A stretch of 64,000 bases of DNA. It comes from Yoonia vestfoldensis DSM 16212. Its GTDB lineage: Bacteria; Pseudomonadota; Alphaproteobacteria; Rhodobacterales; Rhodobacteraceae. Numbering within the stretch: the stretch's first letter is position 1; every line of letters starts with the position of its first letter. A model generated the notes under the pieces. The model worked only from the letters and a program-made list of their open reading frames with translations. It ran no database searches and was not told where the DNA came from. Both the position numbers and the translations under genes were made by a program. Shown here piece by piece: positions 54,855 through 56,099 of the stretch. Where the stretch lies: assembly GCF_000382265.1 (NCBI RefSeq), contig NZ_KB907975.1:62001-126000 (forward strand). The letters run 5' to 3'.

Positions 54855-54935
54855 GCGGCAGCGTTGGCCCGCCCCCGCGCCGCTGTCAAGAACGGGCGCC
54901 ATTGAAACCCGTCGGGCGCGGGTTAATTGGCACGC

Positions 54936-56099
54936 ATGTTCACTCCGACCAAAGACAGCGCGCTGGCGCGCCTTGCCGATTTCGTGCCGCGCGCAGGCCG
55001 CGATTATGCGACCCTGCGCAACCATGAGGACCTTGCCCATGTCTCGGTCCTGTCGCCCTATGTCCGCCACCGGATCATCACCGAGGAAGAGGTGCTGCGC
55101 GCCGTGCTGGCGAGACACAGCCCGCAGGCGGCGGAAAAATTCGTGCAAGAAGTGTTCTGGCGCACCTATTGGAAAGGCTGGCTGGAGATGCGCCCCACGA
55201 TCTGGGCCGATTACCGGCGTGATCTGGCGGGCGCGCTGAACGAGATCCAGACACAGGCGGGCCTGCGCCAAAGATGGGAAGCGGCCTGTCTGGGCCAGAC
55301 CGGCATCGACGGTTTCGACGATTGGGCCCGGCAATTGGTGGACACCGGCTATCTGCATAATCACGCGCGGATGTGGTTCGCCTCGATCTGGATCCACACA
55401 CTGCACCTGCCCTGGGTGCTGGGCGCGGATTTCTTTCTGCGGCATCTGCTGGATGGGGATGCGGCCTCGAATACGCTGTCATGGCGCTGGGTGGGGGGCA
55501 TCCAGACGCTGGGCAAGGCCTATCTGGCGCAGCCGGACAATATCGCGAAATACACCCAAGGCCGATTCCGGCCCGAGGGGCTGGCCCAGTCCGCGGCGTC
55601 CCTGCCCTGCCCCCCGCATCCGGCGCGCGGGCCGCTGCCCGTCAGCGGCACCATCGACCCCGGCCAGCGCACGGGTCTGGTTGTGACCGAGGATGACCTG
55701 TCGCCCGACTGGTTGCTGGACAAGATATCGCCCGTGGCCACGGCTTTTGTGCAAACAACAGACCGGCGCAGCCCGTTGCAGGTAGCCCCGATTGTGACGG
55801 ATTTCGTCGCAGGGGCGATGCGGGATTGCAATGACCGGTTCGCAGGCCAGCTTGGTCGCGTCAGTTTCATCAGTGCCGATGCTGTGGACGACTGGCGCAA
55901 GGCCGAAGGGCTGGAGCAGGTGGTAATGGCCTACCCGCCTGTCGGCCCTGCCGCCGATGCCTTGCGCCAGATCGATGCGGTGCGCATGCTGCGCACCTAT
56001 GATCTGGACGCCTGGCCCCATGCGACCCACGGGTTTTTCCGGTTCAAGGACGCGATCCCCAAACTGCTCGGGCGGATCAAGGGGCTGGCGGTACTCTGA
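54936..56099 (+). CDS. Cryptochrome/photolyase-like FAD-binding protein with domains in reversed order
   Basis: In this 387-residue protein, residues 1-215 correspond to the C-terminal FAD-binding domain of DNA photolyases: VSVLSPYVRHRIITEEEV (38-53), FVQEVFWRTYWKGWLE, TGYLHNHARMWFASIWI (137-153) and DGDAASNTLSWRWVGGIQTLGKAYLA (173-198). The N-terminal antenna-binding alpha/beta domain is absent. Instead residues 235-387 form an alpha/beta region (TGLVVTEDDLSPDWLL, GLEQVVMAYPPVGPAADALRQI, WPHATHGFFRFKDAIPKLL). DNA repair or photoreception is possible but unproven. ATG at 54936 is chosen over a TTG nine bases upstream. It is divergent from trkH. Confidence 0.85.
   Translation: MFTPTKDSALARLADFVPRAGRDYATLRNHEDLAHVSVLSPYVRHRIITEEEVLRAVLARHSPQAAEKFVQEVFWRTYWKGWLEMRPTIWADYRRDLAGALNEIQTQAGLRQRWEAACLGQTGIDGFDDWARQLVDTGYLHNHARMWFASIWIHTLHLPWVLGADFFLRHLLDGDAASNTLSWRWVGGIQTLGKAYLAQPDNIAKYTQGRFRPEGLAQSAASLPCPPHPARGPLPVSGTIDPGQRTGLVVTEDDLSPDWLLDKISPVATAFVQTTDRRSPLQVAPIVTDFVAGAMRDCNDRFAGQLGRVSFISADAVDDWRKAEGLEQVVMAYPPVGPAADALRQIDAVRMLRTYDLDAWPHATHGFFRFKDAIPKLLGRIKGLAVL

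Follow-up and report, generated by a model that had tools for sequence, protein, structure and literature searches.

A probable CPD photolyase of the NewPHL class with inverted domains and a conserved RpoH-like promoter in Yoonia vestfoldensis

The gene at 54936..56099 (+) of the window, the 64,000-nucleotide stretch of Yoonia vestfoldensis DSM 16212 DNA that was analysed, very probably encodes a CPD photolyase of the NewPHL class with inverted domain order. This layout was already published in 2020 (Emmerich et al. 2020, NAR 48:12845, as cited in the excerpts consulted of PMC13274461 and PMC9426592), and the window protein serves well as an example of a type already known, not as a new invention. 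The sequence-only reading had correctly picked out an inverted photolyase from raw sequence, which is here placed in a published class; a new arrangement or a separate light-sensing invention is not supported, the NewPHL layout having been described before. The present analysis adds a high-confidence structure prediction for a class whose PDB sequence matches reach the FAD half only, a sequence bridge from the NewPHL C-terminal domain to ordinary antenna domains, and a strongly conserved RpoH-like promoter, which makes NewPHL regulation directly testable in Rhodobacterales.

Gene and domain order

The open reading frame comprises 387 codons plus a stop codon and is free of internal stops. An in-frame TAA is located at 54924-54926, upstream of the ATG, and therefore no in-frame antenna domain precedes the start codon. 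The N-terminal FAD/catalytic domain (residues 1-224; 54936..55607, +) was delimited by Pfam, structural superposition and residue conservation. The C-terminal Rossmann-like domain of antenna fold, the 'Z' domain (residues 246-381; 55671..56078, +), has five strands and is assigned from the predicted model, Foldseek, VIA and alignment. The Pfam family FAD_binding_7 matched residues 69-191 (E 2.4e-20), covering positions 1-121 of the 203 in the profile. No Pfam family matched the C-terminal 156 residues searched alone at E up to 10, and the N-terminal antenna family PF00875 was found neither in the whole protein (E up to 1) nor in the C-terminal domain alone (E up to 10). Matches to the NCBIfam photolyase models were limited to the first ~200 residues and lay far under the cut-offs, as with the CRY-DASH model TIGR02765 (59.1 bits against a curated cut-off of 317 bits). 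The 49 PDB sequences matched at E up to 1 are nearly all photolyases or cryptochromes aligned on their own FAD domains. None of these matches extends past residue 215; in the five best, residues 2-199 align with FAD domains from photolyases of classes I and III.

The full-length AlphaFold2 model is of high confidence (pLDDT 97.2, pTM 0.94). Residues 1-224 of the model superimpose on photolyase FAD domains, best on that of the Thermus thermophilus photolyase 1iqr (Z 16.5, 204 residues, 2.4 A), followed by 2j07 (Z 16.4, 209 residues, 2.4 A). A scan of the genome contigs (genome_contigs) returned at least 591 candidate stretches, 589 of which encode a relative, and the best 80 were kept. In all of these 80 relatives the match starts at residue 16 or earlier and ends at residue 374 or later, spanning both domains, with 49-67% identity to the window protein (alignment of 81). 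Given relatives that match over both domains, the intact reading frame and the fold, the layout is therefore due neither to chance nor to truncation. The permuted order, FAD domain first and alpha/beta domain second, is real: the reversal claimed from the letters alone is borne out by Pfam, the PDB matches, the AlphaFold2 model and the FAD-domain superposition. The accompanying claim of a complete, untruncated protein agrees with the intact frame, the upstream TAA and the span of the best 80 relatives.

Conserved residues

Alignment of the window protein to E. coli photolyase maps E72, W75, N142, R145, M146, W160, D173, D175, N179, W183 and W185 onto the identical residues E274, W277, N341, R344, M345, W359, D372, D374, N378, W382 and W384, respectively, the principal positions for CPD repair and FAD contact in E. 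coli. Ten of these eleven positions are identical in 81/81 aligned sequences and W160 in 80/81; R76 is also invariant (81/81). The main FAD contacts, on whose retention the assignment from the sequence depended, are kept, being identical to those of E. coli photolyase. Differences from the E. coli enzyme were mapped at R342 (H143 in the window protein), L351 (W152), A377 (S178), Q383 (R184) and A386 (G187). E. coli W306, the third tryptophan in the chain of that enzyme, corresponds to T106. Conservation is higher in the FAD half than in the C-terminal half, with mean column frequencies of 0.77 and 0.52 (82 sequences, paralogue included). At the end of the C-terminal domain a conserved motif is found around D356, W360-P361, A363-T364 and G366-F367-F368.

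Relatives and distribution

Among genomes drawn from the Rhodobacterales, NewPHL was found in 90 of 196 at E 1e-50, the window's own genome included. A phylum-wide draw with a threshold of E 1e-40 gave 13/299 genomes, among them G113, whose match is a split/inverted form and not NewPHL. Seven plasmid records match over 80% or more of the protein; in six of them the gene is named 'FAD-binding domain-containing protein' and in one it is unannotated. Five candidate stretches on viral contigs were obtained, none of which was confirmed as a relative. In the tree of FAD domains, which carries a long-branch warning, NewPHL (11 rows, support 100/100), the split/inverted forms (5 rows, 85/73) and class I photolyases (6 rows, 100/100) form separate groups.

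The CRY-DASH model matched in 177 of the 196 genomes at E 1e-50, yet in none of them above the curated cut-off, so that by this cut-off no DASH protein is recognised among the 196 genomes. The matches at the places compared (G000, G012 and G051) belong to class I photolyases. Some of the genomes also have a second antenna-first photolyase; three such proteins reached 155-176 bits with the DASH model, under its cut-off of 317.

Fold and origin of the C-terminal domain

In the full-length model residues 246-381 form an alpha/beta domain, and the C-terminal domain modelled alone (residues 232-387) reached a pLDDT of 94.7. With this domain as Foldseek query, ranks 1-6 were photolyase or cryptochrome chains, the best being CryB (3zxs; E 2.1e-3, TMq 0.58), and the first universal stress protein appeared at rank 7; no match reached E 0.001 or better. 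VIA-align likewise gave CryB as top match (3zxs residues 1-132; Z 9.2, 2.5 A, 109 residues), with Z 8.0-9.1 for (6-4) photolyases and about 7.1-7.6 for class II photolyases, the latter over about model residues 3-152. Universal stress protein E (3olq) is tied with 3zxs at Z 8.9, and for this model the VIA Z score by itself does not separate a photolyase antenna domain from a universal stress protein. Residues 246-381 are thus predicted to adopt the Rossmann-like antenna fold common to photolyases and universal stress proteins, the fold for which the sequence-only reading had proposed a test by structure prediction.

This shared fold leaves room for a different origin, in which the FAD domain acquired an unrelated nucleotide-binding domain like that of universal stress proteins, so that the antenna would have been re-invented and not moved. 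The tie in VIA Z speaks for it, as does the direct profile-profile comparison of the C-terminal domain (101 sequences) with class I antenna domains (31) and DPRP domains (21), which was not significant: E was 0.004, in the wrong register, and 0.09, and 3 of 100 column shuffles scored as high in each comparison. Against it stand the order of the Foldseek list, the alignment of class II photolyases over nearly the whole modelled domain and a near full-length bridge in the right register. The bridge set consists of only four alpha/beta domains of photolyases with the FAD half first: L173 and L174 from inverted fused proteins of Deinococcus, L172 from Deinococcus sp. QL22, where the photolyase is split over two genes and the second one matches PF00875 at E 2.3e-4, short of its cut-off, and L146 from an alphaproteobacterium, where it is the following reading frame in another frame and belongs to a split pair or reflects a frameshift. 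The profile of the C-terminal domain matched this set at E 3.7e-5 over 125 columns, and the set matched the class I antenna domain at E 8.5e-7 over 141 columns. Leaving out insert columns changed these values to 1.1e-4 and 6.2e-7, and none of 100 column shuffles reached either. The two-step path through this small set supports homology of the C-terminal domain with the antenna domain, and an unrelated fused domain is considered unlikely.

The split two-gene forms (L172 and perhaps L146) suggest that the FAD-first order came about when two halves encoded by separate genes were fused. Of the two origins put forward from the sequence, circular permutation or re-invention, the former term describes the order well, and the split forms suggest a fusion as the event behind it. 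In Deinococcus sp. QL22 (L172, 2899-4190) and in L146, the latter possibly through a frameshift, the photolyase lies in two adjoining frames with cysteines ending the FAD half. Fused FAD-first photolyases were also seen on other Deinococcus plasmids (L173, L174 and L176).

Comparison with known photolyases and proposed function

NewPHL of Dinoroseobacter shibae is described in the available parts of PMC13274461 and PMC9426592 as having the FAD domain first and a C-terminal 'Z-domain', and as repairing CPDs in single-stranded DNA; PMC9178010 and PMC9649867, likewise seen in excerpt, are further second-hand sources on NewPHL or short-photolyase-like proteins. Phr7 of Prochlorococcus is a NewPHL with an N-terminal FAD domain, a C-terminal Z-domain and no Fe-S cysteines, according to the same portion of PMC9426592. 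The window protein has the N-terminal FAD domain, the C-terminal alpha/beta Z-domain and the CPD active-site residues, is without Fe-S cysteines, and is alphaproteobacterial, D. shibae also belonging to the Rhodobacterales. No difference from NewPHL was found in a comparison that, for the characterised D. shibae and M. mesophilicum proteins, was by description only. The split and inverted forms (Phr4-Phr5, Phr6, and those of Deinococcus and alphaproteobacteria) share the FAD half first and the alpha/beta half second, but are encoded by two genes or are 456-457 aa long (L173/L174), carry cysteines where the FAD half ends and form a separate clade. Class I CPD photolyases (E. coli; L081) have the same FAD domain and main active-site residues, whereas their antenna domain comes first and they comprise 471 aa. 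The Fe-S bacterial cryptochromes and photolyases (CryB, 3zxs; DPRP-type L157) provide in their antenna domain the best structural match of the C-terminal domain, but are antenna-first and possess Fe-S cysteines.

If the window protein were an Fe-S bacterial (6-4) photolyase with its domains inverted, it would resemble the picocyanobacterial Phr4/5/6, which are inverted or split with the FAD half first (PMC9426592, in the part consulted), and split and inverted relatives with cysteines ending the FAD half were indeed found. The window protein has just three scattered cysteines (C118, C225 and C298), so that the four Fe-S cysteines of bacterial (6-4) photolyases are absent, and its clade stands apart in the tree with all 11 of 11 rows (100/100, with the long-branch warning), which makes such an enzyme extremely improbable. 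Slightly less remote, yet still very unlikely, is a cryptochrome-like light sensor devoid of repair activity. The photolyase family includes sensors, and CryB of Rhodobacter sphaeroides, the best structural match of the C-terminal domain, affects gene expression (PMC3320616, as far as excerpted). The key CPD and FAD positions are, however, those of E. coli photolyase and, apart from W160, are kept in every one of the 81 aligned sequences; moreover, characterised NewPHL relatives are reported to repair CPDs (PMC13274461 and PMC9426592, in the passages available). As function of the window protein we propose light-driven CPD repair, probably on single-stranded DNA, and not light sensing.

In the NewPHL-class photolyase proposed here, the N-terminal helical domain would bind FAD. 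The reduced FADH-, excited by blue or UV-A light, would transfer an electron to a cyclobutane pyrimidine dimer held beside W75 and W185, while E72, M146 and N179 occupy the positions of E. coli E274, M345 and N378; the dimer would then split and the electron return. The C-terminal domain, an antenna fold in permuted position, most likely serves as a lid on the FAD pocket and is not a proven antenna; in NewPHL it is said to seal the FAD site. The preferred substrate is probably single-stranded DNA.

A conserved RpoH-like promoter

Upstream of the gene lies an RpoH-type promoter conserved among Rhodobacterales NewPHL genes. Its -35-like element, TTGAAA (54902..54907, +), is followed by a -10-like element, TTAATT (54923..54928, +), ending 7 nt ahead of the ATG. 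The comparison took in the 110 bases preceding the gene at 78 of the 80 loci, with L065 and L070 omitted as their starts were not resolved and with the window as an extra sequence. The pattern TTG[AC]-N17-[CT]TA-NN-T was found in 49 of the 78 loci, and at other spacings from 8 to 25 in 0-3 of them. It was absent in 29 loci, for some of which the start is probably misassigned. Elsewhere in the same loci it occurred at 11 sites in 1.92 Mb on both strands, mostly in coding DNA and hence not a like-for-like comparison. A random-sequence control gave 44/79 real against at most 4/79 in 300 rounds, the significance of which is overstated as the relatives are not independent; the fixed 17-nt spacing is a stronger sign of a promoter than this control. 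Among the 51 sites listed under a slightly looser spacing, that of the window included, 31 have a -10 element whose end lies 7-9 nt ahead of the start codon. From this distance the start point is predicted at or next to the ATG, and the mRNA would probably be leaderless.

The pattern is consistent with the RpoH consensus of alphaproteobacteria, CTTGnn-N15-16-CCTATnT (Barnett 2012, quoted in the excerpt of PMC4843759). Its TTG and CTA elements match the RpoHI/RpoHII promoters of R. sphaeroides, where they are one base further apart in the portion of PMC3441632 consulted. A -35 CTTGAA leans to RpoH1 and a -10 CTAnCT to RpoH2 (PMC4843759, same excerpt); the promoter elements of the NewPHL genes do not separate RpoHI from RpoHII. 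RpoH control of NewPHL was not reported in the main texts covered by literature searches, which included parts of PMC3441632, PMC10673084 and PMC7074977. NewPHL is probably transcribed from an RpoH-type promoter, and the conserved sites with their fixed spacing suggest that its mRNA is induced by stress and probably leaderless. A wider picture is put forward tentatively, as possible but short of probable: both antenna-first and FAD-first photolyases would have been assembled from two separately encoded halves, with the split Deinococcus (perhaps also alphaproteobacterial) pairs as living intermediates, and the Rhodobacterales NewPHL would be a dedicated enzyme of the RpoH regulon (heat or singlet oxygen) made from leaderless mRNA.

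Other photolyases and gene neighbourhoods

The genome encodes a class I photolyase (L081), a DPRP-type photolyase (L157), the NewPHL of the window and a second NewPHL (L082; 889-2115 on contig C25 of G000). The second copy is 45% identical to the first over 383 columns and clusters with NewPHLs carried on plasmids of Ruegeria sp. TM1040 and Peteryoungia, together with copies in two other genomes (L130 and L141). The promoter pattern was not found upstream of it, the first ATG being taken as start. Two NewPHL copies are present in 4 of the 196 genomes.

A row of three photolyase genes on one strand, encoding a DPRP-type photolyase, NewPHL in the middle and the second antenna-first photolyase (504-510 codons), was found in three related genomes of the family (G030, G033 and G056) out of 32 NewPHL-bearing genomes searched. 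The clusters span L177 1318-6000, L178 1635-5976 and L179 1904-6300, and in each the antenna-first member falls short of the DASH cut-off. In G056 the stop of NewPHL and the start of the following gene overlap by 4 bases. This arrangement speaks for a repair role of NewPHL, and no report of such a cluster was found in literature searches of main texts. The NewPHL of the window lies outside this cluster, and no photolyase neighbour was found for it. In all three annotated plasmid regions that were opened, a gene for an AarF/ABC1/UbiB kinase adjoins NewPHL (L168, L171) or lies two genes off (L170); a fourth plasmid region, L169, carries no annotation. In L081, within 175-2901, the gene for the class I photolyase stands before one judged by eye to encode a cyclopropane-fatty-acid synthase, an arrangement which recalls the phrA/cfaS neighbours of R. 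sphaeroides, controlled by RpoE according to the excerpt of PMC7074977.
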